64,000 bases of DNA from Ketogulonicigenium robustum. Lineage in GTDB: Bacteria; Pseudomonadota; Alphaproteobacteria; Rhodobacterales; Rhodobacteraceae. Both the position numbers and the translations under genes were made by a program. The notes beneath the pieces are model-generated. The model was not told the origin of the DNA. It searched no databases and worked only from the letters and a program-made list of their open reading frames with translations. How positions within the stretch are numbered: the stretch's first letter is position 1; every line of letters begins with the position of its first letter. The DNA is taken from positions 1 through 64,000 of the forward strand of contig NZ_CP019938.1 of the NCBI RefSeq assembly GCF_002117445.1. Reading direction: 5' to 3'. Below, piece after piece: positions 1,309 to 31,171 of the stretch.

Positions 1309-1411
1309 AAAAGCGGCGCATTTTCGACATCAACCTTCCCGAGGATGATGTGGCGGAAACCTTCCCCGCGGGGAAGGTCGAGGAGAAAAACCTGCGCAGC
1401 GGCGTTCGCCC
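1305..1411 (+). other. parB: Frame-shifted N-terminus of parB
   Basis: A GTG codon overlapping the parA stop (GTGA) opens a frame reading MKKRRIFDINLPEDD, which resembles the N-terminus of plasmid ParB proteins. It runs for 35 codons to 1409 and then is out of phase with the long parB frame that begins with ATG at 1412. Two bases (cc) separate the last codon from that ATG, so one extra base would join the two frames into a single ParB reading ...RSGVRP-MAAAISEN. This looks like a one-base deletion in the short C run, either real or a sequencing error. The second parS-like palindrome lies inside this segment. Confidence 0.65.
1361..1376. other. parS-like palindrome, copy 2 (parB N-terminal region)
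   Basis: Second perfect copy of CTTCCCCGCGGGGAAG. Here the symmetry extends to 20 bp (1359-1378, flanked by AC and GT). In the upstream parB frame it encodes FPAGK, the same residues as copy 1 in parA. A looser half-site (aaccttccc) sits just before it at about 1332-1340. Confidence 0.65.
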
Positions 1412-2416: not shown

Positions 2417-2419
2417 GAT

Positions 2420-2435
2420 CTTCCCCGCGGGGAAG
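2420..2435. other. parS-like palindrome, copy 4 (after parB)
   Basis: Fourth perfect copy of CTTCCCCGCGGGGAAG. It begins four bases after the parB stop codon and lies between the gene and its terminator. Confidence 0.65.
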
Positions 2436-2441
2436 GTTTTG

Positions 2442-2478
2442 GGCCGCATCCCGAAAGGGGTGCGGCCTTTCTGCTTTA
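2442..2478 (+). terminator. Rho-independent terminator of parAB
   Basis: An 11-bp stem (GGCCGCATCCC at 2442-2452 with GGGGTGCGGCC at 2457-2467, one G-T pair) closes on a GAAA tetraloop and is followed by a T-rich stretch. It ends the parAB transcript. Confidence 0.85.
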
Positions 2479-2560
2479 GCGTGTATGTTATGTGATTGTG
2501 TTGCATGTTTCGTGCCCGTGCTAAACAGGGTGACGAATATTGTATGTAAATATAACAATC

Positions 2561-2572
2561 TTTGTATACAAA
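2561..2572. promoter_or_regulatory. Candidate GntR-type operator
   Basis: Perfect 12-bp palindrome TTTGTATACAAA in an AT-rich stretch, 24 bases before the ATG of the amidohydrolase remnant at 2597. A looser inverted repeat ATTGT...ACAAT lies just upstream at about 2539-2559. FCD-type GntR regulators commonly bind palindromes with a TGTATACA core. The GntR gene at 4187 is a possible partner, by inference only. Confidence 0.4.
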
Positions 2573-2596
2573 TTTGCTCGCCTTAAAGCGATGGCA

Positions 2597-2800
2597 TATG
2601 ACTGACGGTGCTAAAGATGCGATCTATCGGGTGCAGCTGGATCACACACGCGATGTTGCGGGGTTAAAGTAGCTGCAGGACGAGAGGGTGCTGCAACCCG
2701 ACGAGTTGGTTACGGTGACATGTTTGTCCTTGGGATTTGATGGTGCGATCTTCTTGGCGGTATGGAAGGATGCCCTGTGGGACAGGTTTGTCATGGCAGC
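2597..2800 (+). pseudogene. Remnant of a ring-opening amidohydrolase (possible)
   Basis: From the ATG at 2597 a frame reads MTDGAKDAIYRVQLDHTRDVAGLK, then a TAG stop, then continues in the same phase with LQDERVLQPDELVTVT. The pattern D-x-x-GL-x-x-L plus L-x-P-x-x-[IL]V resembles the N-terminus of cyanuric acid hydrolase/barbiturase-type ring-opening amidohydrolases. The usual GKTEGNG motif after it is not visible, and the frame soon runs into transposase fragments. I read it as a dead N-terminal fragment. The family call is tentative. Confidence 0.35.
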
Positions 2801-3110
2801 CCCCCAACCACGCACGCCGTCCGAGGCGCAATACAGCGATCTCGAACTACGATCGGGCAGCTGAGCAGGGAACTGGGTGTCAACCCCAAGACCGCCGCAA
2901 GCTGGCCCTCTGGCGCTATGACTACAATAACGTAAGGCGGCATTCCTCGCTGGGCAACAAGACCCCGGCAGATACGCGCCGGACGCGTGAGCAATCTGAG
3001 CGCTCCACGCCCGGCGCACTTGCCCAACCTGAAACCGAGCACTATCAAACCCGAGGGCTCTCGTTATGAACGAGGAACGGCCGCGGGGCAGGTCAAGATC
3101 TGGAAGTCAG
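2795..3110 (+). mobile_element. Chimeric transposase remnant (IS481-like plus IS3-like)
   Basis: Two unrelated transposase scraps abut here. At about 2807-2905 one frame reads TTHAVRGAIQRS...LSRELGVNPKTAA, like the N-terminal helix-turn-helix of IS481-type transposases. At about 2897-3069 another frame reads LALWRYDYNNVRRHSSLGNKTPADTRR and ends TRGLSL, which is the C-terminal end of an IS3-family integrase-core transposase (W-x-x-DYN-x-x-R-x-HSSLG-x-x-TPA). Neither has a complete catalytic DDE set, so the element is dead. The bases after 3069 may hold the IS3 right end. Terminal repeats could not be delimited. Confidence 0.7.
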
Positions 3111-3785
3111 AGCCACAAAGATTCATCCTAAACCCGATTCACAAAATGCCGAGACTGAACACCTAGCGAGCCTTCGAGACTGCAAATCTCGTCGACACGG
3201 GCGTGCGCGCTGCCGAGGTGCGTGGCGCCTACGCTTTCGATGATGTGTAGGACTGCATCGCTGTAGATTCTTTTGCTTCTTGATCAGCGGGCGGATGCCG
3301 GGGCCGTCGCGATCCTCGAGCTTAGCAATGATTAAGAGCAGGGATTTGGCGCCAAGGTGCGGAAGGGCGCGGATGACCTTCTAAAGGTCGGCTATGACAT
3401 CGCCTTGACCCAGCGCCGCAGCGATGGCTTACGGGCGCCGGTGCCTGCGTTGACCGCCATGCCCAGTTGGGTTGCTGCGTCGCGTTGTGCCCCGGGATGA
3501 TGTTGCTGAAGATGCCTGTCGCATCAATTTTCTGCTTATTGCATAAATAATAGTCTTTTATCCTATGTTAACTCTCTGATTATTTTATCAAATGCAGCGT
3601 GGATATAGAGGCCGTTTGCCGGATTTAGCAGCTTTTGTCGTATTTCCGCAGGCAATCGCAGGGTTACGGGTGAGATCAGGGGCGGCGGGAAATATCATAT
3701 TGATATTTTTATACAAAAATTGGTTTTGAAGGGTCTGCTGGCAGCATTGATGTTGAGATAAGCACGATTTGATTCGGCGGTTAGA
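3111..3785. other. Intergenic, decayed DNA without a recognisable gene
   Basis: No convincing reading frame. On the minus strand, short stretches such as KVIRALPHLGAKSLLLIIAKLEDRDGPG (about 3260-3390) look protein-like but are broken by stops and I cannot name the family. From about 3535 to 3780 the sequence becomes clearly more AT-rich than its surroundings, which fits an insertion scar or foreign DNA. Confidence 0.4.
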
Positions 3786-3789
3786 CTGC

Positions 3790-4093
3790 GGACCGAGAGA
3801 ACGCGCCGAGTGCGGCCAAGGAAGACATAGTCATCGTCGACCAGGAGGGCTGGCGCGTAGGAGTGATTGATGACCCGATCCGCGCGTTGCATATGAATTG
3901 CACGGCCGCCAACATGTCGGCCGCGATCATCAACGGGCCTGTGGTGATGGTTGATCGGCGGCAGTTGCCCTGTGTGGACGCGGTTTCAGGACTAATTTGC
4001 GCGGATAAAGGCGGGGTACTGGGCGCCTGGCTAAACGCGGCGCGCGGTTTACGCGCTCTTTCCTGCGACATTGGCGGTGAGATAACAGGCTGA
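3790..4093 (+). pseudogene. C-terminal remnant of an amidohydrolase (TRZ/ATZ type)
   Basis: Read from about 3814, the frame gives AKEDIVIVDQEGWRVGVIDDPIRALHMNCTAANMSAAIINGPVVM. This is typical of the last part of the metal-dependent amidohydrolase family (cytosine deaminase/triazine hydrolase-like), where a D-x-V-x-VD element and an I-x-DPIR-x-L segment precede the closing beta strands. The N-terminal metal-binding barrel is absent. An ATG within it (3863) gives a 76-codon frame, but the fragment is best read as a broken gene. It lies just upstream of the GntR gene that may once have controlled it. Confidence 0.6.
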
Positions 4094-5833: not shown

Positions 5834-5914
5834 GCTATATCTGGGTATTGTCTTGTTCCTTTTTTCGGCGGTGTCTACCCGATTTTACAGGATTTTCGGC
5901 CTGGAGGCTTAATT

Positions 5915-7090
5915 ATGGACATCGGGCAGACGCGTTTCGCCCCCTATGCAGAGGCGATGGTGCCGGTGCGTCATCATTTGCACGAAAACCCCGAGCTTGC
6001 ATTTGAGGAAGTGGAGACCGCCAAGCTGGTGGCGAAGCTGCTGGGTGAGTGGGGTTATGATGTGACGACGGGGATCGGGGGCACCGGTGTCGTCGGGACG
6101 TTGCGCGCGGGGACGGGGAACAAGGCCATCGGGCTGCGCGCCGATATGGATGCGTTGCCGATTTTGGAAGCGACCGGTTTGCCCTATGCCAGCAAGGTGG
6201 CGGGCAAGATGCATGCCTGCGGCCATGATGGCCACACAGCGATGTTGCTGGGGGCTGCGAAATATTTGGCCGAAACGCGCGATTTTTCGGGCGTGGTGCA
6301 TCTGATCTTCCAACCCGCCGAGGAGGGGAAGGCCGGCGCCAAGGCCATGATCGATGATGGTCTGTTCGAGCGTTTTCCGTGCGAGATGGTGTTTGGCATT
6401 CACAACGGGCCGGGCACGCCCGTGGGGCAGTTGCGCTATGCGGCGGGGTCGTTTGCGGCGGCGAACGACCGTTTGGACGTGGTGATTGAAGGCAAGGGTG
6501 GCCATGCGGCCCAGCCCGACACGACCTTTGATCCGATTGTTGCGGGCAGCACGATTGTATCGGCGTTGCAGTCGGTGGTGTCGCGCAATGTGAACCCGCT
6601 GGATTCGGCGGTGGTGACGGTTGCCATGTTCCGCGCGGGCGAGACGTTCAACGTCATTCCGCAGCGTGCCGAGATGAAGTTGTCGCTGCGGACGCACTTG
6701 CCCCGTGTGCGGGCGCATGTGAACGAGCGTGTGCGCCAGCTGATTGCGGATATTGCGGGGGCCTATGGTTGCGTGGCGAGCGTTGTGGCCGCGCCGAACC
6801 CCTATCCGCCGCTGATCAACGATGCCGAGGCGACCGATGTGGGGCGCCGTGCCGCTGTCGCCGCGCTGGGGGCCGAGAATGTGGTGAATCTGGACCGGCC
6901 CATGATGGGGTCGGAAGATTTCTCGTTCATGCTGGAGGTGAACAAGGGGGCCTATTTCTTCATGGGCAACGGCACCGAGGGCGCGAACGGGGTTGCGGTG
7001 CATAACCCGCGCTATGATTTCAACGACGACGCACTGCTGCCGGGCATCGCCTTTTGGGCGACGCTGGTCGAGCAAGAGCTGCAAGCTTGA
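5915..7090 (+). CDS. M20-family amidohydrolase (hippurate hydrolase-like)
   Basis: Cytoplasmic metal-dependent amidohydrolase that cleaves N-acyl amino acids or related amides. The 391-aa protein shows the M20D motifs: RADMDALPI at 75-83, MHACGHDGH at 99-107 (metal ligands Cys and His), FQPAEEG near 136-142 and a late GSEDFSFM. No signal peptide. Length matches hippurate/IAA-amino-acid hydrolases. It is the first gene of a plus-strand run with a solute-binding protein and Dpp-type importer, so its substrate is probably what they import. Likely controlled by the divergent LysR. Confidence 0.92.
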   Translation: MDIGQTRFAPYAEAMVPVRHHLHENPELAFEEVETAKLVAKLLGEWGYDVTTGIGGTGVVGTLRAGTGNKAIGLRADMDALPILEATGLPYASKVAGKMHACGHDGHTAMLLGAAKYLAETRDFSGVVHLIFQPAEEGKAGAKAMIDDGLFERFPCEMVFGIHNGPGTPVGQLRYAAGSFAAANDRLDVVIEGKGGHAAQPDTTFDPIVAGSTIVSALQSVVSRNVNPLDSAVVTVAMFRAGETFNVIPQRAEMKLSLRTHLPRVRAHVNERVRQLIADIAGAYGCVASVVAAPNPYPPLINDAEATDVGRRAAVAALGAENVVNLDRPMMGSEDFSFMLEVNKGAYFFMGNGTEGANGVAVHNPRYDFNDDALLPGIAFWATLVEQELQA

Positions 7091-7112
7091 GTGCGCAACA
7101 AGGAGAGTAACG

Positions 7113-8702
7113 ATGACACAGTCCAGACGTGATTTTTTACGCAATAGCGCGTTGCTTTCGGCGGCTTTTGCGATGCCGTGGCAGATGGCGATGGCCCAGA
7201 CCGGCCGCACTGCGGTGTTCAAGTGGGTGCCCCATGCCGATTTGGCCGTGGTTGACCCGATGTATTCGACATCGCTGATTACGCAGCTGTTCAGCCTGAT
7301 GGTGTTCGACACGCTGTTTGGTTTGGACGAGAATTACGAGCCGCAGTTGCAGATGGCTGAAAGCCATGTGGTGTCGGATGATGCGTTGCAGCATACGATT
7401 GTTTTGCGCGACGGGCTGAAGTTCCACAACGATCAGGATGTGACGGCGGCGGATTGTGCGGCCTCGATCACGCGGTGGATTGCGCGCGGTAGTTCGGCTG
7501 CGGTGTTGCAGCCGGTTGTTGAGACGGTGACGGCGGCGGATGCGAAGACCATTGTCATCACGTTGAACGCGCCGTTCCCGCTGTTGCCTGCGCTGCTGGC
7601 GCGCCCGCACAACGGTTGCACCATTTTGCCCGAGGCCGAAGCCTTGCAGGCCGAGCGGATCGACCGCCCGACCGGCAGCGGCCCCTACAAGATGGTTTGG
7701 GACGAGTGGGTTCAGGGCGCGAAGGTGGTGTTCGAGCGCTTTGACGGGTACGTGCCGCGCGAGGGGGCTGATGCCGTATTCACCGCCGGGGCCAAGGTTG
7801 CGATGATCGACCGTGTGGAATGGCTGGTCATTCCCGATGCGGCGACGGCTTTTGCATCGCTGCAGGCGGGCGAGGTTGACGGCGTCGAGGCGATGTCGCT
7901 GGATTTCGCGCCGATTTTGGAGATGGTTCCCGGCTTCAAACTGTATCGTGGGGCGCTGCCCCAGATTGGTGTGCTGCGGTTCAACCATCTGCATGCGCCG
8001 TTCAATGATGTGCGGGTGCGCCAGGCGGTGCAGATGGTCGTCAGCCAGCAAGAATTCATGTATGCGACGGCCGGTGCGGAAAACGCCGACTATCTGGATG
8101 TGCACACCGGCGCCTTTGTGCCCGATACGCCGATGGCCAGCGACCGCGGCATGGAAGCGCTGGATGGCCCGCGCGATTTTGATGCGGCCAAGGCTTTGTT
8201 GAAAGAAGCGGGCGTTTACGGCAGCACAATCACGCTGGTCGATACGGTGTCGGTCGGATCGCTGCATTCGCTGTCGCTGATTGGGGCCGAATTGCTGCGC
8301 AAGCTGGATTTCGACGTCAAGGTCGAGACCTTGGACTGGGGTGCATCGTTGCAAAAGCGCGAGGTGCGCTCTGCACCCGAGGAGGGGGGGTGGAACGTGT
8401 TCTTCACCCTGATCACCGGTGTGAACAATTTGGACCCCATCGGTCAGCTGGCCATTCGCGGCCGCGGCGAGGCCGGTTGGTTCGGTTGGCCGACGTCCGA
8501 GCGGATCGAGGCGCTGTACACGCAGTGGATTAACGCTGAAACGCAGGCGGATCGCATTGAGATTGCGGCCCAGATGCAGGAACAGATGTTCATCGACGTG
8601 CCCTATGTTCCGCTGGGGTCGATGTATAGCGTTTCGGCGCTGAAGGAGAACTGGTCGGGTGTTCAAACCGCCATGCCGACGTTCTACACGCTGCGCGGCT
8701 AA
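7113..8702 (+). CDS. Periplasmic peptide-binding protein, Dpp family (SBP family 5)
   Basis: Solute-binding receptor of the ABC importer encoded downstream. The start at 7113 follows a clear AAGGAGAG ribosome site; a longer frame from 6993 overlaps the preceding gene and is rejected. The 529-aa protein begins MTQSRRDFLRNSALLSAAF and ends its leader at AMA, a twin-arginine-like signal (SRRDFL). The SBP_bac_5 fold is seen in LRDGLKFHNDQDVTAADCAASITRW and the GSGPYKMV segment. The ligand is a peptide or similar amide-bearing compound by context. A hairpin with a T-tract follows and may raise its level over the permeases. Confidence 0.93.
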   Translation: MTQSRRDFLRNSALLSAAFAMPWQMAMAQTGRTAVFKWVPHADLAVVDPMYSTSLITQLFSLMVFDTLFGLDENYEPQLQMAESHVVSDDALQHTIVLRDGLKFHNDQDVTAADCAASITRWIARGSSAAVLQPVVETVTAADAKTIVITLNAPFPLLPALLARPHNGCTILPEAEALQAERIDRPTGSGPYKMVWDEWVQGAKVVFERFDGYVPREGADAVFTAGAKVAMIDRVEWLVIPDAATAFASLQAGEVDGVEAMSLDFAPILEMVPGFKLYRGALPQIGVLRFNHLHAPFNDVRVRQAVQMVVSQQEFMYATAGAENADYLDVHTGAFVPDTPMASDRGMEALDGPRDFDAAKALLKEAGVYGSTITLVDTVSVGSLHSLSLIGAELLRKLDFDVKVETLDWGASLQKREVRSAPEEGGWNVFFTLITGVNNLDPIGQLAIRGRGEAGWFGWPTSERIEALYTQWINAETQADRIEIAAQMQEQMFIDVPYVPLGSMYSVSALKENWSGVQTAMPTFYTLRG

Positions 8703-8720
8703 ACCGAAGACGTGATGCGA

Positions 8721-8769
8721 CGGGGCGGTTTGTCGGGAAACCGGCAGGCGGCCCCGCTTCACCTTTTTT
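8721..8769 (+). terminator. Intercistronic attenuator hairpin after the binding-protein gene
   Basis: Outer stem CGGGGC (8721-8726) with GCCCCG (8751-8756), inner stem GGTTT/AAACC, then a run of six T at about 8763-8769. It lies between the binding-protein and permease genes of one operon, so partial termination would give more binding protein than permease. Confidence 0.5.
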
Positions 8770-8781
8770 CCCTTGGGTGCG

Positions 8782-9723
8782 ATGACAAGTTATATTTTAA
8801 AGCGACTGCTTTCGACCATTCCGGTCATGGCGATGATTGCGATTTTCGCGTTCGCAGTGCTGCGGTTGGCGCCGGGCGATCCGGCGTTGATGATTGCGGG
8901 CGAGGATGCATCGGCCGACCAGATCGCCGCGATCCGCCATGACTTGGGCTTGGACCAGCCGTTCATTCCGCAATTCATGAGCTGGGTGGGCAATCTGCTG
9001 CATGGTGATCTGGGCTTGTCGCTGTACACGCGACAGCCGGTGGCCGAGATGATCGGGCAGCGGATCGCCCCGACGTTCACGCTGATGTTGTTGACGCTGG
9101 TGATTGCCGTGGTGTTTGGCATCGTGCTGGGTGTGATTTCGGCGTGGCGGCAGAACAAGGTGACGGACCAGTTGATCATGTTGGTCATGGTGCTGTTGTT
9201 CTCGATTCCGAACTTTGTGGTCGCTTATATTTTGACGTGGTTCCTGGGGCTAAAGCTGGGCTGGTTGCCGGTGCAGGGGTATACCCCGCTGGGCGACGGG
9301 CTGTGGGCATCGATGCGCAGTTTGCTGATGCCCGCGATGGCGCTGGCGTCGGTGTACATTGCGCTGATCGGGCGGATCACGCGGTCGGCGATTTTGGAAA
9401 ACCTGCGGCTCGATTTCGTGCGGACGGCGCGGGCGAAGGGCGTATCCGAGGGGATGGTGTTGTTTCGCCATACGCTGAAGAACGCGGCGGTGCCCATTGT
9501 CACCATCATCGGCAGCGGTGTGGGTGTATTGATGAGCGGATCGGTTGTGACCGAGAACGTTTTCGCCATTCCGGGATTGGGGCGTCTGACCGTTGATGCG
9601 GTGTTGCGCCATGATTACCCCGTAATTCAAGGTGTTATCCTGCTGTTCGGGGCGCTTTATGTGCTGGTGAACCTTGCGGTTGATATTGCCTACACTTTCT
9701 TCGATCCGAGGATCAAATACTGA
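8782..9723 (+). CDS. ABC importer permease, DppB type
   Basis: Inner-membrane subunit of the peptide-type importer, 313 aa from the ATG at 8782 (MTSYILKRLLSTIPVM); an in-frame TTG three codons earlier is possible. The features are the N-terminal membrane segment with R-R-L-L, the extracytoplasmic APGDPA loop, six predicted membrane spans and the EAA-like coupling segment around RTARAKGVSEGMVLFRHTLKNAAVP near residue 220. It overlaps the next permease gene by one base (TGATGG). Confidence 0.93.
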   Translation: MTSYILKRLLSTIPVMAMIAIFAFAVLRLAPGDPALMIAGEDASADQIAAIRHDLGLDQPFIPQFMSWVGNLLHGDLGLSLYTRQPVAEMIGQRIAPTFTLMLLTLVIAVVFGIVLGVISAWRQNKVTDQLIMLVMVLLFSIPNFVVAYILTWFLGLKLGWLPVQGYTPLGDGLWASMRSLLMPAMALASVYIALIGRITRSAILENLRLDFVRTARAKGVSEGMVLFRHTLKNAAVPIVTIIGSGVGVLMSGSVVTENVFAIPGLGRLTVDAVLRHDYPVIQGVILLFGALYVLVNLAVDIAYTFFDPRIKY

Positions 9724-10556
9724 TGGCCGGGTTCTTTTCCATTTTTCGGGGCAATCTGACCCTGACCATCGGGACGATCATGTTGCTGCTGATCGTGTTG
9801 ATGGCTATTTTCGCGCCCTATCTGGGCACTGTTGACCCCTCGACGATCCGCGCCGAGTTGCGCGGGGTGGGGCCGTCGGCCGAGCATTGGCTGGGCGGTG
9901 ATATGCTGGGGCGCGACATCTATTCGCGGGCGTTGTATGGCGCGCGGGTGTCGCTGATTGTCGGCTTTGGCGTCGCGCTGCTGAGCACGGTTGTGGGTGT
10001 GACGCTGGGCTTGCTGGCGGGTTTCGTTCGCTGGGCCGACCCGATCATCATGCGCGTGATGGATGGGTTGATGGCCATTCCCACCATTTTGATCGCGATT
10101 GCGATGATCGCGGTGGCGGGTGTGTCGCTGACGAATGTGATTATCTCGATCACTTTGGCCGAGGTGCCGCGGCTGGTGCGTTTGGTGCGGGCGTCGGTGT
10201 TGTCGCTGCGCGAGCAGCCTTATGTCGAGGTGGCCGCTGCATCGGGCGCCAGCAAGACGCGGATCATTTTGCTGCATTTGCTGCCCAATGCCACCGCGCC
10301 GATTATTGTGACGGTGACCTATCAGATCGCCTTGGCGATTTTGTTCGAGGCGGGTCTGTCTTTTCTGGGCGTGGGTATTCCGCCGACCATTCCCACGTGG
10401 GGCAACATGATGTCCGAGGGTCGTGCGCTGTGGCTGGTCAAGCCGCATCTGGTGATGATCCCTGCGGCGTTCCTCAGCGTGACCATTTTGGCCATCAACC
10501 TGATTGGCGACGGTCTGCGCGACGCATTCGACCCGCGTATGAAGAAGAGGGCCTGA
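9723..10556 (+). CDS. ABC importer permease, DppC type
   Basis: Second permease of the importer, 277 aa. It shows the DppC pattern of an N-terminal span, a short periplasmic segment with HWLGGDMLGRDIYSRALYGARVSL, five further spans and the coupling motif VEVAAASGASKTRIILLHLLPNATAPI. It begins inside the stop codon of the DppB gene and is followed two bases later by the ATPase gene, so translation is probably coupled. Confidence 0.93.
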   Translation: MAGFFSIFRGNLTLTIGTIMLLLIVLMAIFAPYLGTVDPSTIRAELRGVGPSAEHWLGGDMLGRDIYSRALYGARVSLIVGFGVALLSTVVGVTLGLLAGFVRWADPIIMRVMDGLMAIPTILIAIAMIAVAGVSLTNVIISITLAEVPRLVRLVRASVLSLREQPYVEVAAASGASKTRIILLHLLPNATAPIIVTVTYQIALAILFEAGLSFLGVGIPPTIPTWGNMMSEGRALWLVKPHLVMIPAAFLSVTILAINLIGDGLRDAFDPRMKKRA

Positions 10557-10557
10557 T

Positions 10558-12402
10558 ATGACACATTCCCCCTTGTTGGAGGTGAAGAACCTGACGGTTC
10601 GCTTTGACGGATCGGCGACGCCCGCCGTGCAGGACATTTCGCTGCATGTGAATGCGGGCGAGACGTTGGCGATTGTCGGCGAGTCGGGGTCGGGCAAGTC
10701 GGTGACCTCGATGGCGGTCATGCGGTTGAACGATTTCGCGGGCGGCAAGATCGAGCAGGGCAGCATTCGGTTGCGCCGTGCCGATGGGTCGGTGTTGGAT
10801 ATTGAAAGCGCCGATCAGGCTGTGATGCGCAAGGTGCGCGGCAGCGACATCGCCATGATCTTTCAAGAGCCGATGACATCACTGAACCCCGTGATGACGA
10901 TTGGCGACCAGCTGGTCGAGGCGATCCGGTTGCATCAGGACAAGTCGGTGGCCGAGGCACGCAACGAGGCGGCCCGTTTGCTGGATCTGGTGCGTATACC
11001 GGGGGCGCGGGCGGCTTTGGCGCGCTATCCGCACGAGTTTTCGGGCGGGATGCGGCAGCGGGCGATGATCTCGATCGCGCTGTCGTGCCGCCCCAGCCTG
11101 CTGATTGCGGACGAGCCGACGACGGCGCTGGATGTGACCATTCAGGCGCAGATTTTGGGCTTGATGCGCGATTTGCAAAAAGAGATGGGCATGGGGATGA
11201 TGTTCATCACCCATGACCTTGGGGTGGTGGCCGAGGTGGCGGACCGTGCTGTTGTGATGCGGCGCGGGCGTTTGATCGAGGAAGCCAGCATTGACGCGTT
11301 GTTCCGCGCCCCGAAGGAAGACTATACCCGTCGCCTGCTGTCGGCCGTGCCGCGTTTGGGGGCGACTTTGGGCACCGATCAGCCGCTGCGGTTTGATCTG
11401 ATCGAGGATGGCGAGGCCGCCCCCACTGCCGCGCCGGTGGTGGATGTTGTGCCCGACATGGCCGCCCCGATTCTGAGCGCGCGCGAGTTGGAGGTGCGTT
11501 TTCCGATCAAGGGCGGGATTTGGGGCCGTGTGCAGCGCGAGGTGCATGCCGTCGAGAAGGTGTCGTTCGATTTGCATCGCGGCGAGACCTTGGCGTTGGT
11601 GGGCGAATCCGGTTCGGGCAAGACGACCACGGGGCGGGCGCTGTTGTCGCTGGCGCCGCGTTCGGGCGGCCAGATCGTGTTTGACGGGCAGGCGATTGGC
11701 CCGAACAATGCGCAAGGGATGGCTGTGTTGCAGCGCAACATCCAGTTCATTTTTCAAGATCCCTATGCATCGTTGGATCCGCGGATGCGGATTGGCAAGT
11801 CGATCACCGAGCCGATGGAAATTCACGGGCTAGCCCGTGGTTCCGAGGCGCGGCGCAGGGCCGAGGCACTGCTGGAGCGCGTTGGCCTGTCGGCCGATAT
11901 GTTCGACCGCTTTCCGCACCAGTTTTCGGGTGGGCAGCGCCAGCGCATTTGCATTGCGCGCGCGCTGGCGGCCGAGCCGAAGGTGATTATCGCGGATGAG
12001 AGCGTTTCGGCGTTGGATGTTTCGGTGCAGGCGCAGGTAGTGAACCTGCTGCTGGATTTGCAGGCCGAGACGGGCATTTCGATGCTGTTCATCAGCCACG
12101 ATATGGCCGTGGTCGAACGGGTCAGCCACCGCGTTGCGGTGCTGTATCTGGGGCAGATTGTCGAGATCGGGACGCGGCGGCAGGTGTTCGAGAACCCGCA
12201 GCACCCCTATACGCGGCGTTTGCTGTCGGCGGTGCCGATTGCCGAGCCGGGTAAGCGTAAGGCGTTCAATCTGGATATGTCGGAACCCAAGGGGGCCATT
12301 TTGCCGGTTGGGGCCAGTGTGCCCTTGGCACCGCTGGTGGATATTGGCGGCGGCCACCGTGTGGCGCAGCATGCCATTGGCGACTTCAAGGCGGCTGTAT
12401 AA
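10558..12402 (+). CDS. ABC importer ATPase, fused DppD-DppF type
   Basis: Single 614-aa protein carrying both ATPase domains. The first half has Walker A GESGSGKS (41-48), signature [11 protein letters not shown] and Walker [13 protein letters not shown]. The second half repeats these as [29 protein letters not shown] and [12 protein letters not shown]. Each half ends with the oligopeptide/dipeptide C-terminal region ([10 protein letters not shown]). It closes the operon and is followed by a strong terminator. A pair of permeases with one fused ATPase is a common form of this transporter class in alphaproteobacteria. Confidence 0.94.
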
Positions 12403-12425
12403 AGCCAGCGTTTTAAATGTGTTGA

Positions 12426-12457
12426 GGCCACCCCGTCGAGCGGCGGGGTGGCCTTTT
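12426..12457 (+). terminator. Terminator of the first Dpp operon
   Basis: Stem GGCCACCCCG (12426-12435) with CGGGGTGGCC (12444-12453), an 8-base loop and TTTT. It lies between the convergent Dpp ATPase and MmgE/PrpD genes. Confidence 0.85.
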
Positions 12458-12462
12458 GCTGT

Positions 12463-13797
12463 TCAGGTGAACAGCGGGCCGAGGAAGGCCAGATCCGGCT
12501 GGGTCGCGATCGCCTCGCATGTCGCAAAGAGGGTTGCGGGGGGTGCGATGTGGCGCGTGCAGTCGGTGAACTTGGTTTGGCGGTCATCGGCGGTGAAGGG
12601 GTCGTTGATCGTGCCTTTGGCGAAGTGCCGCGTGCCGTGTAGTTGGGCGCCCGATGTCAGCGTGATCGTTGTCTGGTGGGGTTGGTCGATGCTGCTGGAC
12701 TGCGGGTCGTAGTCCATCGTGATGTTTTGGAGCAGCGGGTCGCTAGCATAGCGATCGACGGAGGCTTGGGTGAAATCGGCGAGGCCGAGGACGCCTTTGT
12801 GCAAAGTGCGGGCGACGCAATACTGCATCGAGAAGCGGGCCTGCATTTCGTTGATCGGCGCGGGGTAGGCGAGGTTGCGCCAGTTGGCGAGGCCGACCCG
12901 CGTGTCGACCCGCGCGACCTGCGCGGCGGTGAAGCCGTGGGTCTTTTGCAGGTCGATGACCGTGTCGAGGACGAGGTGCGTCGAGCCGCAGCAGGGGTGA
13001 CGCTTGGGCATGAGGCCGCTGGTTTCGATGACGTGGGCGGCGGGGATTTCGGGGGTGTCTTCCCACCATGTGGTGGGTGTGCCGCCTGCGTAAAGCGCGC
13101 GGAAGCCTTGCGCGCCTTCGAGGATGTCGAGGCGGCCCGAGAGGCCCGCTTGGGCGAGCAGTGCGGCCTCGACCGCGTTGCGGGCGGCCATGCCGGCGTG
13201 GAAGGGTTTTGCGGGCGTGCCGAACTGGCCCTTGATGCCTGATGCCATACTGGTGCCCAGCGTCAGCGCGCGCGCGATGCCAGCAGCATCGAGGCCGAGG
13301 AGCCACGCAGTGCCCGCCGCCGTGCCGATGCTGCCGGTTGTTGATGTGCCGTGCCAGCCCGCCGCGTAATGCGCGTAGCCGACGCCTTGGCCGACATGGG
13401 CCTGCGCCTGCAGCGCGATCAGGTAGGCGGTGACGAAATCGGCGCCGCTGGCCTGCGTTTGTTCGGCGATGGCCAGCAGCGCGGGGACGATGACGGCCGA
13501 GGCATGGCTGATCGCGGGGAGGAAGTTGTCGTCGTAATCCAGCGCGTGGGCGGCGGTGCCGTTGACAAGCGCCGCGACCGACGCTGTGGCGGTGCCGCCC
13601 CCCACCAGACGCGCGGGGCCGTGCGTGCCGTGGGGGGCCATAGCGCTGCGGACGGCGGCTGTGGCGGGGTCGGTTTCGCCCGCGACCATGCAGGCGAGCG
13701 TGTCGGTAATCGCCTGCGCCGCGCGGGTTTGGGCGATGGGGGAAAACGTGTGTGGCGCGGCGGCCCACGCGGCGATGGTTTCGATGACGGTTGGCAT
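12463..13797 (-). CDS. MmgE/PrpD-family protein
   Basis: 444-aa cytoplasmic protein of the MmgE/PrpD superfamily, which includes 2-methylcitrate dehydratase and cis-aconitate decarboxylase. Family hallmarks include an N-terminal helical domain with AHALDYDDNF near residues 80-95 and GIARALTLGTSMASGIKGQFGTPAKPFHAGMAARNAVEAA in the middle. It is the last gene of the LysR-M20-MmgE/PrpD operon, four bases after the M20 gene. In this setting it more likely acts on an intermediate of amide catabolism than in propionate metabolism, because no prpBC lies nearby. Exact reaction unknown. Confidence 0.88.
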   Translation of the reverse strand: MPTVIETIAAWAAAPHTFSPIAQTRAAQAITDTLACMVAGETDPATAAVRSAMAPHGTHGPARLVGGGTATASVAALVNGTAAHALDYDDNFLPAISHASAVIVPALLAIAEQTQASGADFVTAYLIALQAQAHVGQGVGYAHYAAGWHGTSTTGSIGTAAGTAWLLGLDAAGIARALTLGTSMASGIKGQFGTPAKPFHAGMAARNAVEAALLAQAGLSGRLDILEGAQGFRALYAGGTPTTWWEDTPEIPAAHVIETSGLMPKRHPCCGSTHLVLDTVIDLQKTHGFTAAQVARVDTRVGLANWRNLAYPAPINEMQARFSMQYCVARTLHKGVLGLADFTQASVDRYASDPLLQNITMDYDPQSSSIDQPHQTTITLTSGAQLHGTRHFAKGTINDPFTADDRQTKFTDCTRHIAPPATLFATCEAIATQPDLAFLGPLFT

Positions 13798-23471: not shown

Positions 23472-24011
23472 ATGGATTCCGAGGATAGCGCGTTGGAACA
23501 GGCGTATCTGCAGATGCGCCCTCAGCTGTTGCGGTATGCTGCCGGACGGATGGGCACCGCCAGTGATAGCGAGGATTTGGTGCAGGAGGCGTGGTTGCGC
23601 GTGCGGCGGCATGCGCCCGCTGTGCTGGCCGCGCCCTTGCCCTACATGATGCGGGTCATGCGCAATCTGGTGATTGACCACGGGCGGGTGCGGGCGCGCC
23701 GGTTGCGACAGGCCGAGGTTGATGCCTTGCTGGAGGTGCCGGGCGATTTGCCTAGCCCCGAAGATGCCGCGATTGCCCGATCGCAATTGCGGCTGTTCGC
23801 GCGGGCGCTGGCGGGTTTGCCGCTGCGGCGGCGCGAGATTTTGATTGCGGCGCGGTTGCGGCGTGTGCCCTATGCGCAGATTGCGGCGCAGCACGGGGTC
23901 TCGGTGCGGACGGTGGAATACGAGGTGCGGTTGGCGTTGGACCATTGCATTGCGGCGATGGCCGCCGCCGAAGACGGTTATCGCATGGAAAACGGGGAAG
24001 CGCGCGGCTGA
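23472..24011 (+). CDS. ECF-type RNA polymerase sigma factor (FecI-like)
   Basis: 179-aa extracytoplasmic-function sigma factor. Region 2 is seen in RMGTASDSEDLVQEAWLRVRR and PYMMRVMRNLVIDHGRVRARR, and region 4 in LAGLPLRRREILIAARLRRVPYAQIAAQHGVSVRTVEYEVRLALDHC. It heads the sigma, anti-sigma, TonB-dependent receptor cluster and should direct transcription of the receptor when surface binding relieves the FecR-like partner. The inducing ligand, perhaps an iron chelate or heme, is not shown by sequence. Confidence 0.92.
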   Translation: MDSEDSALEQAYLQMRPQLLRYAAGRMGTASDSEDLVQEAWLRVRRHAPAVLAAPLPYMMRVMRNLVIDHGRVRARRLRQAEVDALLEVPGDLPSPEDAAIARSQLRLFARALAGLPLRRREILIAARLRRVPYAQIAAQHGVSVRTVEYEVRLALDHCIAAMAAAEDGYRMENGEARG

Positions 24012-24034
24012 CGCCGTGCTGTGGGGTGGCAGTG

Positions 24035-25000
24035 ATGAGCCCAGCAATGGCCAGGCAAGACAGCGTGACAGTGGGGCGTCCTGCCGTTGATGGCGGGCCA
24101 GATGAGGCAAGCGCGTGGATTGCCTTGCTGGTATCGGGGCGCGCGACGGCGCAGGATGCGGCCGATCTGCGCGCGTGGCAGGCCGCCAGCCCAGAAAACG
24201 CGGCGGCCTATCAGGCGGCGCTGCGGGTATGGCATGATGTTGGCCCCGCCTTGGCGCAAAGCGGGGCCGCCGTTGGCGCGCGCAGGGCGGTGTCGCGCCG
24301 CGCGGTGCTGCGCGGGGGCGTTGGGCTTGCGCTGGCTGTGGGCGGTGCGGGGGTTGCCAGTCAGGTCTTGGGTTTGGGCCCGTTTGGCGATGGGGCCGCG
24401 CATGTGGTGGGTGTCGGCGGGCGGGCGGATCTGCGGTTGCAGGATGGCAGCGCCGTCGTGTTGGATGGCGGATCGCGCATGACGCCCGAGATGGACAGTG
24501 GTGCGCGCGGGATGCATTTGCTGGCTGGTGCTGCGCAGGTGCAGGTTGCGGCTGAGGCCAGCCAACCCTTTGCCCTGCGGGCGCGCGATTGGCGCGCAAT
24601 CGCTGCGCCGGGTGCCGAGATCGCCGTGGTGTTGGGGGCGCAGAGCGATTGCATCGAGTGTTTAAGCGGGGATTTGGCTGTTGCTGGCATTGCGGTGCCT
24701 GCGGGCCACCGTATGGTGCGCAGCGCCGACGATGTTTACCGGATCGAGGCGGCGCCCCCCGAGGCGATGGCCGCGTGGCGGGCGGGGTATTTGGTGTTTC
24801 AGGATCGGCCGCTGGCGGATGTGGTGGCCGACATCAACCGGCACCGGCGTGGCCGCATTGTCGTGATGCGGGCGGGTGCGGATGCGATGCGGGTATCGGG
24901 AGTGTTTCATTTGCAGCGCCCCGACGAGATCCTGCCGCAGATCAAAAGCGTTTTAGGATTTCAAACCATTACGTTACCGGGTTTGACGCTGATCACCTGA
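24035..25000 (+). CDS. FecR-like anti-sigma factor / signal transducer
   Basis: 321-aa inner-membrane regulator that relays a signal from the TonB-dependent receptor to the ECF sigma factor. Its cytoplasmic N-terminus (DEASAWIALLVSGRATAQDAADLRAWQAASPENAAAYQ, the DUF4880 type) is followed by one membrane segment near residues 80-110, preceded by SRRAVLRGG, then a periplasmic FecR domain and a C-terminal STN-like segment (GYLVFQDRPLADVVADINRH...). The start at 24035 is chosen because upstream residues do not resemble the family. It lies 23 bases after the sigma gene. Confidence 0.9.
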   Translation: MSPAMARQDSVTVGRPAVDGGPDEASAWIALLVSGRATAQDAADLRAWQAASPENAAAYQAALRVWHDVGPALAQSGAAVGARRAVSRRAVLRGGVGLALAVGGAGVASQVLGLGPFGDGAAHVVGVGGRADLRLQDGSAVVLDGGSRMTPEMDSGARGMHLLAGAAQVQVAAEASQPFALRARDWRAIAAPGAEIAVVLGAQSDCIECLSGDLAVAGIAVPAGHRMVRSADDVYRIEAAPPEAMAAWRAGYLVFQDRPLADVVADINRHRRGRIVVMRAGADAMRVSGVFHLQRPDEILPQIKSVLGFQTITLPGLTLIT

Positions 25001-25099: not shown

Positions 25100-28000
25100 A
25101 TGGCACGATATATTCAAAACACGCGGTGCGGTTTGTCGGCGGTGCGGTTGCTGCGTCAGACTGCGCTTTGCCTCTCGCTAGGGGCTGTGATGGGCGCGGC
25201 GGGATGGGGGCCGCTGGCGGTTGCGCCTGCGGTGGCGCAGACCGCCAGCTTTGCGATACCGGCGGGGGCGCTGCAGGATGCGCTGACGGGGTTCGGGCTG
25301 CAAAGCGGGTTGCAGCTTTTTTACGATGCCGCTTTGACGAACGGCCTGCAGACCGGCGGTGTGACGGGGCAGATGGCGGCGGGCAGCGCCTTGGCGCAGA
25401 TTTTGGCGGGCACGGGTTTGACCTATCGGTTCAACGGGCCTGGTGCGGTTGTTTTGGTGCCGGTTGCCGCCGCGCAGGCGGGCGACAACCTTGTCTTGTC
25501 GCCGATCCGCATCGGGTGGGGCGAGGCGGGCGTCGCCGCGCCTTATTTCAACCCCGGGGCCAGCAGCCATGTCGCGCGAGAGGATATTCAGAATTTTCGC
25601 GGCTCGAACGCGGCGGATATGTTTCGCGGCACGGCGGGGGTGATGTCGGGCGATGCGCGCAATAGCGGTGCCGGTGTTGATGTGAACATTCGCGGGATGC
25701 AGGGTTTTGGCCGCGTGAACACCACCATCGACGGGGCTGAAAACGGCATTTCGGTGTATCAGGGCTATCAGGGCGCGGCGAACCGCACCTATGTCGACCC
25801 CGATCTGATTGCCGAGGTGGACGTGAACAAGGGGTCGGACGTGGCCTCGCGCGGGATTGCGGGGTCGGTCGCGATGCGCACCATCCGCGCCGACGATGTT
25901 TTGGGTGCGGGCGAGACGATGGGCTATCGCCTGAATGTCGAGCTGGGGGGCAACACCGCCAGCCCCGAGGACGGGGCTTTGGCCGGTTATGCATGGCCCA
26001 CCGCCTATTGGCTGCCCGCTGTCGCCACCCCGTCGGCGCAGGGTATGGACCGGCCCAGTGGGCTGCGGGCGACGCAGGGATCGGTCAGCATCGCGGCGGC
26101 CGTGCGCCACGAGGATTTTGACTTGCTGCTGGCCTATGCCTTGCGCAAGCGCGGCAATTATTTTGCGGGGTCGGATGGTCCGGGGGCCAGTCCCCTTGAT
26201 ATCGGCAAGGTGGTCAGCTGCAATGCCAATAACTACTGCACCACGTGGGACCCCTACATCGAAAACACGGGCCTGACCAATTACCGCACAGGCGAGGAGG
26301 TGTTGAACACGCAGTTGGAGACCCAATCGCTGTTGATCAACGCCACGCGCTATTTCGGCCCCGATGCGACGCTGCAGTTGGGGTATAACGGCTATTTTTC
26401 GGAAAGCGGCGACAAGCTGGCGTCAAGCCTGACGACCGAGCGCAGCCAAGCCGTGCAGGCCAGCCGCACCACCGGCACGGATGTGCATACGATGACCAGT
26501 CGGTTTCGTTGGAACCCGGCTGGCAACGATATGATCGATTTGCGCGCCAATGCCTGGGTGACTTTGCTGGCACAGCGGCAGGTGTCGCGCAGTTTGAACG
26601 TGCCGTTGGCCGCGATGCAGGAACGCTATCGGATTGGCACTGACGCGCGGATGCGGGGGGCGGATATCAGCAATACCTCGAGCTGGGATGTGCGCGAGGG
26701 CGCGCTGTCGCTGAGCTATGGCCTGTCGTATTTGAACGAGCGGGTCGAGCCGAGTTTGTATGGGCGCGAGTTGAACAGCTTTGTCACCACGCAGGGCGAG
26801 CGGAGCGAAAATTCGGGGTTCGTGCGCGCCAGCTATGCGCCGCGCGACTGGCTGACGCTGAATGCGGGGCTGCGTTATACCTATGTCGATCTGCACGACG
26901 CGAGTGATTACAGCGGCTATTCGACCGCCTATTTCGACCGTGACCCCTACCGCAGCGGCGGCGGGTTCAGTCCGTCGTTTGGTGTGACGGTCGCGCCGTT
27001 CGAGAACACCCAAATTTACGCCAACTGGTCCAGCACGTTGCGCTATGCCAGCTTGTATGAAAGCGCGATGGTGTCGTCATTCACTTTGGCGCCGATTTCG
27101 GTCGACCCCGAGCGGGCCAATAACTGGGAAGTGGGCATCAACCACGTGCGCGAGGGGCTGTTCACCCCGAACGACACCGCCATGGTCAAGCTGAGCTATT
27201 TCAACTGGGATATCGAGGATTACATCGGGCGGCAGTATGTTTCGGTGCCGCAGCCCAATGGTGCGCGTTATACGGGCATGCAGGTGATGAACTTGGACAG
27301 CGCCCGTTTTGAGGGGGCCGAGCTGAGCGCGCGTTACGAGAACAGTGGGTTCAGCGCCGACTTTGCGGCCAGCTATTTCATCGACATGCAGTATTGTCTG
27401 ACGGCGGGGGCCTGCGATTCCGCGACACTTTATTCCGATTTTGCCACGAACCATGTGCCGCCCAAGTTCACGCTGGATCTGACCGTGCAGCAAAAGCTGA
27501 TGGATGATCGTTTGACGCTGGGCGGGCGCGTCTCGCGCGTGGGGCCGCGGGCGATTGACCATGGGCAGGTGACCGCGACGGGGATGTCGCAGTTCATTTC
27601 GCAGGTGAAGTGGGACCCCTATACGCTGGTCGATCTGTTTGCCAGCTACCGCCTGAACGACGATGTGACGCTGTCGTTCCGTGTCGAGAATGTGGCCGAT
27701 AAGTATTACGTCGATCCGCTGGGGTTGGTAACGCAGCCTGGGCCGGGGCGGACGTTTTATGTGGGGCTGACCAATACCTTTGGGGCGGGCGGGGCGTTGC
27801 CGCGCGTGTTCTCGGGGGAGGTCAGCGACCGCAGTGGCGGGCGAGACTGGGCGGGCCTGTATGCGGGCGTTTATGGTGGCCGCAACTGGGCCGGTAACGC
27901 TACGCAATTTGCGGCGCTGGATGGGTCGACCACACCGATGACGCTGAACGAGGGTTTCGATCTGGCGTTCGACGCGCCGATGGCTGGTGTGCAGCTGGGC

Positions 28001-28696
28001 TATAACTGGCAGTTCGCCAACGGTTTCATTCTGGGCGTGCAGGGTGATTACGCCCGCCCCGACATGCGTTTGGATGTGACCAATCTGTCGGCCGAGGGTG
28101 ATCTGGCGGGGACGGACGCGGTGGCGTCTGTTTATCACCAAGAGGTGGACTGGACGGCGGCGCTTAACCTGCGGGCAGGTTATGCGTTTGACAACGGCCT
28201 GCAGCTGTACGGTTTGGCGGGCGTCGCGCGCCAAGGCGAGACGTGGTACCGCGACAGTTACAAGGCTGATTATGCCGACCGCTACCTGCCGAACGGGACG
28301 ACGACCACGCTGACGGAGATTGAGCAAATCTCGGTCTCGCGCAATGGATTGAATATCGGGCTGGGGATGGAATATGCGCTGAACGACAACTGGTCGATTT
28401 GGGCGCAGGTGAACCGCACCTTCTTCCGCAAGGCCGAGGGCGCGTTCCAGCACAGCCGCGAGGGGACGTCGCTGGGCTATACGAAAAGCGTGGCGGTGGG
28501 CACCGAGGAAGTTGTCATTCCTGCCAATCCACTGGCCTGCGAGCGGTTTGGTATTCGCTGCACCGAGACGGTGGCCGAGCAGACCATTTTCGAGCAGGTT
28601 CCCGTCGAAGGCAGTTATGAGCGGGTCACTGGCCGCGCGGCGCATAGCGAGATGACGAATGACAGCATTCGGCTGGGTGTCAGCTACCGGTTCTGA
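25100..28696 (+). CDS. TonB-dependent receptor with STN domain, fused to a second outer-membrane beta-barrel
   Basis: Outer-membrane ligand-gated channel of about 1,198 aa. In order it has a signal peptide ending near residue 47 (PAVAQ), a secretin/TonB N-terminal (STN) domain at about 51-121 (FAIPAGALQDALTGFGLQSGLQLFYDA), a plug domain at about 145-270 (FRGSNAADMFRGTAGVM, then VDVNIRGMQGFGRVNTTIDG) and a 22-strand barrel ending FYVGLTNTF near residue 894, a typical terminal strand. After a 20-residue linker, a second domain (about 916-1198) reads DWAGLYAGVYGGRNWAGN and ends SIRLGVSYRF, like the small porin-like OMP barrels (Omp25/Opa type). Reading is continuous with no internal stop. An in-frame ATG at 25064 is an alternative start. 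The STN domain and FecI/FecR neighbours predict surface signalling. The ligand, possibly a metal chelate or heme compound, is unproven. Confidence 0.92.
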   Translation: MARYIQNTRCGLSAVRLLRQTALCLSLGAVMGAAGWGPLAVAPAVAQTASFAIPAGALQDALTGFGLQSGLQLFYDAALTNGLQTGGVTGQMAAGSALAQILAGTGLTYRFNGPGAVVLVPVAAAQAGDNLVLSPIRIGWGEAGVAAPYFNPGASSHVAREDIQNFRGSNAADMFRGTAGVMSGDARNSGAGVDVNIRGMQGFGRVNTTIDGAENGISVYQGYQGAANRTYVDPDLIAEVDVNKGSDVASRGIAGSVAMRTIRADDVLGAGETMGYRLNVELGGNTASPEDGALAGYAWPTAYWLPAVATPSAQGMDRPSGLRATQGSVSIAAAVRHEDFDLLLAYALRKRGNYFAGSDGPGASPLDIGKVVSCNANNYCTTWDPYIENTGLTNYRTGEEVLNTQLETQSLLINATRYFGPDATLQLGYNGYFSESGDKLASSLTTERSQAVQASRTTGTDVHTMTSRFRWNPAGNDMIDLRANAWVTLLAQRQVSRSLNVPLAAMQERYRIGTDARMRGADISNTSSWDVREGALSLSYGLSYLNERVEPSLYGRELNSFVTTQGERSENSGFVRASYAPRDWLTLNAGLRYTYVDLHDASDYSGYSTAYFDRDPYRSGGGFSPSFGVTVAPFENTQIYANWSSTLRYASLYESAMVSSFTLAPISVDPERANNWEVGINHVREGLFTPNDTAMVKLSYFNWDIEDYIGRQYVSVPQPNGARYTGMQVMNLDSARFEGAELSARYENSGFSADFAASYFIDMQYCLTAGACDSATLYSDFATNHVPPKFTLDLTVQQKLMDDRLTLGGRVSRVGPRAIDHGQVTATGMSQFISQVKWDPYTLVDLFASYRLNDDVTLSFRVENVADKYYVDPLGLVTQPGPGRTFYVGLTNTFGAGGALPRVFSGEVSDRSGGRDWAGLYAGVYGGRNWAGNATQFAALDGSTTPMTLNEGFDLAFDAPMAGVQLGYNWQFANGFILGVQGDYARPDMRLDVTNLSAEGDLAGTDAVASVYHQEVDWTAALNLRAGYAFDNGLQLYGLAGVARQGETWYRDSYKADYADRYLPNGTTTTLTEIEQISVSRNGLNIGLGMEYALNDNWSIWAQVNRTFFRKAEGAFQHSREGTSLGYTKSVAVGTEEVVIPANPLACERFGIRCTETVAEQTIFEQVPVEGSYERVTGRAAHSEMTNDSIRLGVSYRF

Positions 28697-28762: not shown

Positions 28763-31171
28763 CTAAAGGTTTGGGGTTGTTGTGATTTTCAGCCGAATGT
28801 CGCTGCTGGATTGCCCGATCGCCAGCGTGATTGGCCCCGCGGGCATCGCCCATGCGGCGGCTGCCGTGTCCCATTCGCGCAGGGCGGTGGGGGTCACGGT
28901 AAGGGCGATGTCGCGGCTTTCGTGGCTGTTCAGGGCGATTTTGGCGAAGGCCAGCAATTTGTGCGCACCGTCCGGCAGGACGCGGTAAATCTGCGCGACC
29001 TCGGACGTGGGGCGGGGGGCGGCGTTGTGTAGGTGCAGGCCGACCAGCAGGCCACCGTCGGGCGTAGTGGCGACGCGCGGCTGGCTGTAGCTGACATCGC
29101 CAAAGCCCAAGCCGTGGCCGAAGGGGAAGAGCGGGGTCAGCCCCAGCACGTCGAAGCGGCGCTGGCCGATGGTCGGGCCTTCGGAATAGGTGACGGTGCC
29201 GCTGCGTTCGGGGCGTTCGGTGACGGTGGTGATTTGATCGTCCGACGCGGGGAAGACCTGTGGCAAGCGCCCTGACGGTTCTTGCAGCCCAAGGATCACG
29301 TCGGCCAGCGCGTTGCCGCATTCTTGGCCCGGGTACCATTGGTGCAGCACGGCGGCGACATCATCGGCCCATGGCATCGACAGCGGGCAGCCGGCTTGCG
29401 TGACCACGATGGTGCGCGGGTTCGCCGCCGCGACCGCGCGGATCAGATCGTCCTGTCCGGGGGGCAGGGCGAGGGTGCGGCGATCCTCGGATTCGGTTTC
29501 CCATTCGGGGCTGAGGCCGGTGACGATAATGGCGACATCGGCATCTTGCGCCAAGGCAACGGCGACCGCCGGATCGCCAAGGGCGGACGTGGCGCGCAGG
29601 CCAAAGCGGATGGCTTTCAGCGAGGTGGCAATGCCGTCGCCGCAGAAATACTCGGCCCGCAATTCATAGGTTTGGCCAGCGGTTAGCATCACCGTGCCGC
29701 GCCGTTCATCGCAGCCGTGGCCGAAGTAACTTTCGCCCTTGGCCCATGTATCCCAAGCATCAAGGATTTCGGCGTCGTCGAGATAGAGTTTGGAGAGGCC
29801 TGCCGACATCAGTCCGATTTCATGGGCGCCCGACTGCGTCGCGGTAAAGCGGACGCTGACACGCGCAGCAAAGGCTGAATGGTCGATTTCGGGGGCGACG
29901 GCACCAAACCATGCGAAATCGGTGCTGGCCGCCTGTTGGATCAGTGTCGGCGTGCCGCTGCGGTCTTCGCCGTTGAACAGTTCCAGCGTGACGTCGCCAA
30001 TGACAGCGGGAACGAAGCGTTCGGCGGCACGGCCAAGGGCGGTGTCGATTTGCACATCGGGCAGCGCGGCCTGCAAACCGGCCAGCGGCGTGATGGCATA
30101 ATGGGCATTGATCTGCGCCGAACCGCCGCCGTGGATGACCGCGACGGTCGCGTTCGGCCCGATCAGCGCGATGCGGCGCAATTTGGTCGGATCCAGCGGC
30201 AGGATGTTGTTTTTATTGGTCAGCAGCACCGTCGATTCCGCGATTGTGCGGCGGATCAGGGCGCGGGTAGCGGGGCGGTCTTGCGCGGTTTCGGCGGACA
30301 GATCGTCATCAAGCGATGTTCCAAGACGCTGGCCCATGGCGATGATACGGCCCGCAGATGTGCGGATGTCGGCGGGATCGACGCGGCCTTCGCGCGCGGC
30401 AGCGGCCAGTTTTTCACCGCGGAAGCGCCCCGGGCCGGGCATTTCCAGATCGAGGCCTGCAGAGATCGCAGCCTCGGTCGAGTGGGTGCCGAGCCAGTCG
30501 GACATGACGATGCCGTCAAAGCCCCATTCATCGCGCAGGATGGTTTGCAGCAGCCACGGGTTTTCGGATGTATGCGTGCCGTTCAGCCAGTTGTAGGAGG
30601 TCATCACGCAGGTGACTTTGGCCTCGCGGACGGCGGCCTCGAACGGGGGCAGATAGGTTTCGCGCAGGGTTTTTTCGTCGATGGCCGAGTTGATCGAGCG
30701 GCGCTCGGTCTCGCATTCGTTGCCGATGAAATGTTTGATGGTTGCGCCCACCCCCTGCGACTGGACGCCCTGAATGAAGGCCACCGCCATGCGCGCGGCA
30801 AGGTGTGGGTCTTCCGAGAAATTCTCGAAATTGCGGCCATTCAGCGGGTTGCGGTGCATGTTCACCGCAGGGGCAAGGATGATGTGGGCTTTCTTGGCCT
30901 TCACCTCGGCGGCCAGATCAATGCCAATCTCGTGCACCAGATCGGTGTTCCAAGTGGCGGCAAGGGCGACCTCGGCGGGGTAGGCGGCGGTGCGGCTACC
31001 GTTTGTAAACGCCTCGCCACGCGCGCCGTTGGTGCCGTCGGTCACTTTGATCGCGGGCAGGCCGACGCGCGGGATTTCGGTGGTGCGCCAATAGGTTGCA
31101 CCGGCAAGCAGGCTAACCTGCTCGTCCAAAGTCAGTTGGTCGAGCAGCGAATTTTGGGCGTCTTGGGTCAT
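28763..31171 (-). CDS. Glycoside hydrolase family 3 beta-glucosidase-like enzyme
   Basis: 802-aa enzyme that removes terminal beta-linked sugars. The N-terminal (alpha/beta)8 domain has NGRNFENFSEDPHLAARMAVAFIQGVQ and KHFIGNECETERR, with the predicted nucleophile Asp225 in the VMSDWLG motif. A PA14-like insertion (about 390-500, VRFTATQSGAHEIGLMSAGLSKLYLDD) and a C-terminal fibronectin-III-like domain follow, a common GH3 layout. No signal peptide, so it acts in the cytoplasm. It is the last gene of a Pot-type importer operon, three bases after the permease stop, so it probably deglycosylates the imported ligand. Confidence 0.93.
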   Translation of the reverse strand: MTQDAQNSLLDQLTLDEQVSLLAGATYWRTTEIPRVGLPAIKVTDGTNGARGEAFTNGSRTAAYPAEVALAATWNTDLVHEIGIDLAAEVKAKKAHIILAPAVNMHRNPLNGRNFENFSEDPHLAARMAVAFIQGVQSQGVGATIKHFIGNECETERRSINSAIDEKTLRETYLPPFEAAVREAKVTCVMTSYNWLNGTHTSENPWLLQTILRDEWGFDGIVMSDWLGTHSTEAAISAGLDLEMPGPGRFRGEKLAAAAREGRVDPADIRTSAGRIIAMGQRLGTSLDDDLSAETAQDRPATRALIRRTIAESTVLLTNKNNILPLDPTKLRRIALIGPNATVAVIHGGGSAQINAHYAITPLAGLQAALPDVQIDTALGRAAERFVPAVIGDVTLELFNGEDRSGTPTLIQQAASTDFAWFGAVAPEIDHSAFAARVSVRFTATQSGAHEIGLMSAGLSKLYLDDAEILDAWDTWAKGESYFGHGCDERRGTVMLTAGQTYELRAEYFCGDGIATSLKAIRFGLRATSALGDPAVAVALAQDADVAIIVTGLSPEWETESEDRRTLALPPGQDDLIRAVAAANPRTIVVTQAGCPLSMPWADDVAAVLHQWYPGQECGNALADVILGLQEPSGRLPQVFPASDDQITTVTERPERSGTVTYSEGPTIGQRRFDVLGLTPLFPFGHGLGFGDVSYSQPRVATTPDGGLLVGLHLHNAAPRPTSEVAQIYRVLPDGAHKLLAFAKIALNSHESRDIALTVTPTALREWDTAAAAWAMPAGPITLAIGQSSSDIRLKITTTPNL

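Follow-up and report, generated by a model that had tools for sequence, protein, structure and literature searches.

The window analysed here comprises 64,000 nucleotides of Ketogulonicigenium robustum (contig NZ_CP019938.1, positions 1 to 64,000). On the forward strand, positions 25100–28696 form a single frame of 1198 residues with zero internal stops, on a 226-kb contig within a 2.7-Mb genome. The frame can be extended upstream to 25064; judged by eye, the start at 25100 suits a signal peptide. Genes for a sigma factor and a FecR protein lie directly upstream on the same strand (Table 1). The convergent ORF downstream (28763–31171, minus strand) looks, on inspection by eye, like a family 3 glycoside hydrolase.

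The sequence-only reading had described a TonB-dependent receptor whose frame runs on past the closing motif FYVGLTNTF, near residue 894, through a short linker into a second barrel ending in SYRF. Both observations were borne out. FYVGLTNTF occupies residues 886–894 (27755–27781) and closes barrel 1, and no stop follows until 28696. After 21 linker residues, DWAGLYAGVYGG opens barrel 2 at residue 916 (27845), and SYRF (residues 1195–1198) is the end of the chain.

Table 1 Features of the receptor gene and its upstream neighbours (window coordinates)
Feature	Coordinates	Strand	Basis
ECF sigma factor, FecI type	23472–24011	+	Pfam Sigma70_r2 and r4_2 above cut-off; NCBIfam ECF/FecI models
FecR-type anti-sigma/sensor protein (DUF4880 + FecR), exact start putative	24032–25000	+	Pfam DUF4880 and FecR above cut-off; NCBIfam NF007296 6.5e-23, below its cut-off
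Fused TonB-dependent receptor and second barrel, 1198 aa	25100–28696	+	Single open frame; Pfam STN, Plug, TonB barrel, OMP_b-brl
Predicted signal peptide, ~residues 1–47, cleavage near AVAQ/TA	25100–25240	+	By eye; N-terminus variable in alignment
STN signalling domain, residues 51–121	25250–25462	+	Pfam STN 1.8e-10; matches HasR, FecA and PupB signalling domains
Putative TonB-box segment, ~residues 130–137	25487–25510	+	Conserved LxLxxIxV between STN and plug
Plug domain, residues 152–252	25553–25855	+	Pfam Plug 8.5e-13
Barrel 1, TonB-dependent receptor barrel, closing with FYVGLTNTF	25880–27781	+	Pfam 2.1e-36; TIGR01785 to 677/677 at residue 894; HasR aligned to residue 861 of 865
Linker, residues 895–915, no hydrophobic signal sequence	27782–27844	+	Sequence
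Barrel 2, predicted 8-stranded OMP_b-brl (Omp25-like), β-hairpin in last extracellular loop	27845–28693	+	Pfam PF13505 4.2e-13 (tail alone); AlphaFold2 pLDDT 80.4, pTM 0.70

Evidence for two barrels in one chain

Pfam matches fall along the chain in the order STN (residues 71–121, 40.9 bits), Plug (152–252, 49.2 bits), TonB barrel (413–865, 127.1 bits) and OMP_b-brl (919–1111), so that the four domains for which a search had been proposed are all present above their curated cut-offs. The last of these, PF13505, scores 36.7 bits on the whole chain and 50.3 bits on the tail alone, with a gathering cut-off of 28.7. The NCBIfam hemin-receptor model TIGR01785 reaches its last position (677/677) exactly at residue 894, which places the end of barrel 1 there; at 302.4 bits this match lies slightly below the model's cut-off of 316.85. 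The 22 strands of barrel 1 are predicted by homology.

The tail (residues 916–1198) was modelled by AlphaFold2 from 19 sequences as eight strands plus an extracellular β-hairpin (Table 1). At 283 residues it has the size estimated earlier (roughly 280), but the description "porin-like" was loose, as the model and family match indicate an eight-stranded OMP_b-brl of the OmpA/Omp25 kind and not a classical 16-stranded porin. A PDB sequence search with the tail profile returned chance-level matches only. The fold search retrieved assorted small barrels (OmpA, Ail, OprG) at low TM-scores, which indicates just a small outer-membrane barrel.

Structure prediction was informative for the tail but not for the whole chain, whose model, built from five sequences, was poor (pLDDT 46) and said nothing on how the barrels sit together. 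Such a model cannot by itself speak against a reading in which the tail belongs to barrel 1 and the two form one larger barrel. This reading is nevertheless very improbable, and we rejected it: barrel 1 matches receptor models through their last position, at residue 894, unfused homologues stop at the same place, and the tail alone both matches complete stand-alone proteins in sequence comparison and models as an eight-stranded barrel. The linkers of the homologues differ among themselves and, by eye, likewise contain no signal peptide. With no signal peptide at the junction, the tail would rely on the export of the receptor.

Judged from sequence and model, the chain thus holds two complete barrel domains, as a multi-barrel protein does, together with an STN domain, and the Pfam matches, the TIGR01785 end point and the tail model all agree with the architecture first proposed. 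That a receptor and a complete second barrel share one polypeptide is, on this evidence, very probably real.

Proteins that place several barrels in the outer membrane have already been described as a class (Solan et al. 2021, as cited in PMC11494523) and are known mostly from prediction. GfcD, as presented in that source, likewise has more than one barrel per chain, but its predicted barrels have 12 and 13 strands and surround a middle domain, whereas here a TonB-dependent receptor is joined to an eight-stranded barrel. In the literature searched, no paper was found that describes an eight-stranded barrel at the C-terminus of a TonB-dependent receptor. Thus, multi-barrel proteins are already known, while this combination is new as far as could be checked. 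It also poses the question of how the BAM machinery folds a polypeptide that has a closing strand in its interior.

Distribution and history of the fusion

The survey of other genomes recovered the same fusion in 16 further alphaproteobacterial genes, giving 17 fused proteins with the present one. A congener carries it in frame at 67% identity and has a second, more distant fused homologue. Others occur in Hoeflea, Azorhizobium (two), Ancylobacter, Pseudochrobactrum, Novosphingobium and Shinella, and seven more were found in six of the 397 sampled genomes of the order around G347. Among 391 sampled genomes of its own order, and among 387 of its class, the fusion was found only in the K. robustum genome itself. 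The fusion is rare and scattered, which suggests that it was transferred into Ketogulonicigenium.

These homologues bear directly on whether the long frame could be an error, or could have arisen when two genes were joined by the very recent loss of a stop. We found no point in support of this, and its probability is negligible: the frame is fused in the congener and in other genera, the junction contains no signal peptide, and the tail appears to be under purifying selection. For the last point, the tails of the two congeners give a dN of 0.32 and a dS of 1.7, an indication only, as dS is near saturation. A lost stop codon or sequencing error was accordingly discarded. Nor do the homologues encode the two barrels as separate genes, the arrangement that would have refuted the sequence-only reading; the tail is either in frame or missing, and in annotated unfused loci no separate second-barrel gene was seen at the junction or downstream.

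The receptor tree intermixes fused with unfused copies and requires six to seven changes, at least four to five of them forced by well supported branches. A quick tail tree grouped 15 of the 17 fused tails together, apart from stand-alone barrels. Two rows labelled stand-alone in that tree were duplicate fused genes; they were corrected for the p-AU run, in which a single clade of all 17 fused tails was not rejected (p-AU 0.26). From these trees the fused tails probably form one group with one or two origins, and the simplest reading is one or two fusions followed by several losses of the tail; alternatively, the tail may have been exchanged repeatedly. Some receptor pairs (G000 with G001, L111 with L112) are found again in the tail tree, a pattern that inheritance of the fusion as one unit would produce.

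Several homologous loci have features of their own. The Hoeflea olei locus (L023) encodes a fused receptor (5995–9525) followed by an unfused paralogue (9926–12667); the first 430 coding bases of the two and the 122 bases upstream are identical, so the two proteins would have the same signal peptide and STN domain. Azorhizobium oxalatiphilum (L024) has two different fused receptors close together (300–3803 and 5863–9471), and after both comes an autotransporter-like ORF of 1792 residues. A large autotransporter also lies near the fused receptor of Ancylobacter (L034). In L063, one ORF (1051–2721) encodes both a small barrel and an OmpA C-terminal domain.

Receptor family, gene neighbourhood and candidate ligand

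Among solved structures, the closest both by sequence (1.7e-48) and by fold is HasR, which serves Serratia marcescens as hemophore/heme receptor. It is itself under sigma/anti-sigma control, a likeness to the present gene. The HasR structures (PDB 3CSL, 3DDR) have STN domain, plug and barrel in the same order, but HasR ends at barrel 1 where the present chain continues, and its heme ligands are replaced here: H189 aligns to Y223, which is invariant in ten aligned fused proteins, and H603 to V658. The gene order sigma factor-FecR-receptor and the STN domain recall the FecA/FecI/FecR system, although the receptor is nearer the hemin family, as the FecA model gives only 49 bits of the 1100 required. 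The genome also encodes an unfused receptor paralogue of 37% identity on the same contig (G000:C2:144781-147465; L014, L071), likewise preceded by sigma- and FecR-like ORFs.

Heme is a likely ligand for the receptor family. Of 33 homologous loci, 12 contain heme-oxygenase genes (5 of 16 fused, 7 of 17 unfused), often with exbB, exbD and tonB, though none is beside this gene; one was confirmed by Pfam and one is annotated in Roseinatronobacter. The congener's orthologue adjoins exbB-exbD-tonB, and the K. robustum genome encodes the heme-handling protein HemS. For this particular member heme is less sure, because the HasR ligands are replaced and PF01126 heme oxygenase is absent from its genome, as it is from that of the congener. 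A search of the genome for the hemophore HasA (PF06438) gave no match, and control searches were equally silent.

These same gaps would fit a receptor that imports a ferric siderophore or another metal complex, captured by the tail; moreover, a multicopper oxidase is encoded near one fused homologue, and cytochrome bd genes adjoin another. Yet the receptor comes closest to the models for hemin receptors and to HasR, and with the heme-oxygenase loci and HemS also counting against it, we regard a non-heme ligand as improbable.

Possible roles of the second barrel

Six residues are conserved in the fused tails and not in stand-alone barrels (E951, R1051, Y1054, E1075, R1081 and R1179). In the modelled topology all map to the extracellular half of barrel 2, which points to a ligand or partner at the cell surface. 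Barrel 2 resembles stand-alone alphaproteobacterial members of the Omp25/Omp31/Hbp-type small barrels (PF13505) but has no signal peptide of its own and stands at the C-terminus of a receptor. Hbps of Bartonella are reported to bind heme and to promote its uptake by a separate heme transporter (PMC3483173); one of them, Pap31, is homologous to Brucella Omp31 and Agrobacterium Omp25 (PMC8877253). By resemblance at the family level, the tail may be akin to Bartonella Hbps and Brucella Omp31.

From this analogy and the genome context we propose a mechanism in which one signal peptide would export the whole chain and BAM would fold both barrels side by side, with the short linker between them in the periplasm. 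At the cell surface, barrel 2 would gather a ligand that is probably heme, much as free-standing heme-binding barrels reportedly do in Bartonella, and so raise the local ligand concentration for barrel 1, which would import it with TonB energy. The ligand-bound receptor would then signal from the STN domain through FecR to FecI, inducing its own gene. As a whole, this explanation, a HasR-like heme receptor that is coupled to FecI/FecR and carries a tethered barrel for capturing heme at the surface, has, in our estimate, an even chance of being correct. Its most specific part, that barrel 2 is a covalently tethered heme-capture barrel feeding barrel 1, so that a heme-binding barrel of the surface would be naturally fused to its receptor, we hold only tentatively.

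The role of barrel 2 need not involve heme, because small barrels of the same type are also fused to sugar porins. It might instead be a structural partner that does not touch the ligand, serving as a folding aid, in packing against LPS or neighbouring proteins, or as a shield against phage or bacteriocins. Omp25-type stand-alone barrels are abundant, and the fusion of this barrel type to OprB sugar porins (PF04966 with PF13505) makes a general structural or surface role plausible. Unfused homologues, moreover, retain their heme-oxygenase neighbour, which makes the tail dispensable for the core function. The conserved extracellular residues absent from stand-alone barrels suggest, however, a specific surface interaction, and we consider a purely structural role rather unlikely. 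The roles guessed by the sequence-only reading, namely dimerization, anchoring of an enzyme or gating of a different solute, found no support; the genome context favours heme uptake.

Were tethered heme capture correct, it would explain how unlinked barrels such as the Bartonella Hbps aid heme uptake. In this fusion a small barrel, with relatives whose roles are disputed, is attached to a transporter that is well understood, so that the role of the small barrel can be tested by simple deletion.

Fusions of small barrels may be a wider habit of alphaproteobacteria. The OprB porins mentioned above (L045, 157–2199; L046, 178–2229) resemble the present protein in that a small barrel is fused to a larger one, but there the small barrel (OMP_b-brl) is N-terminal and its partner is a sugar porin.
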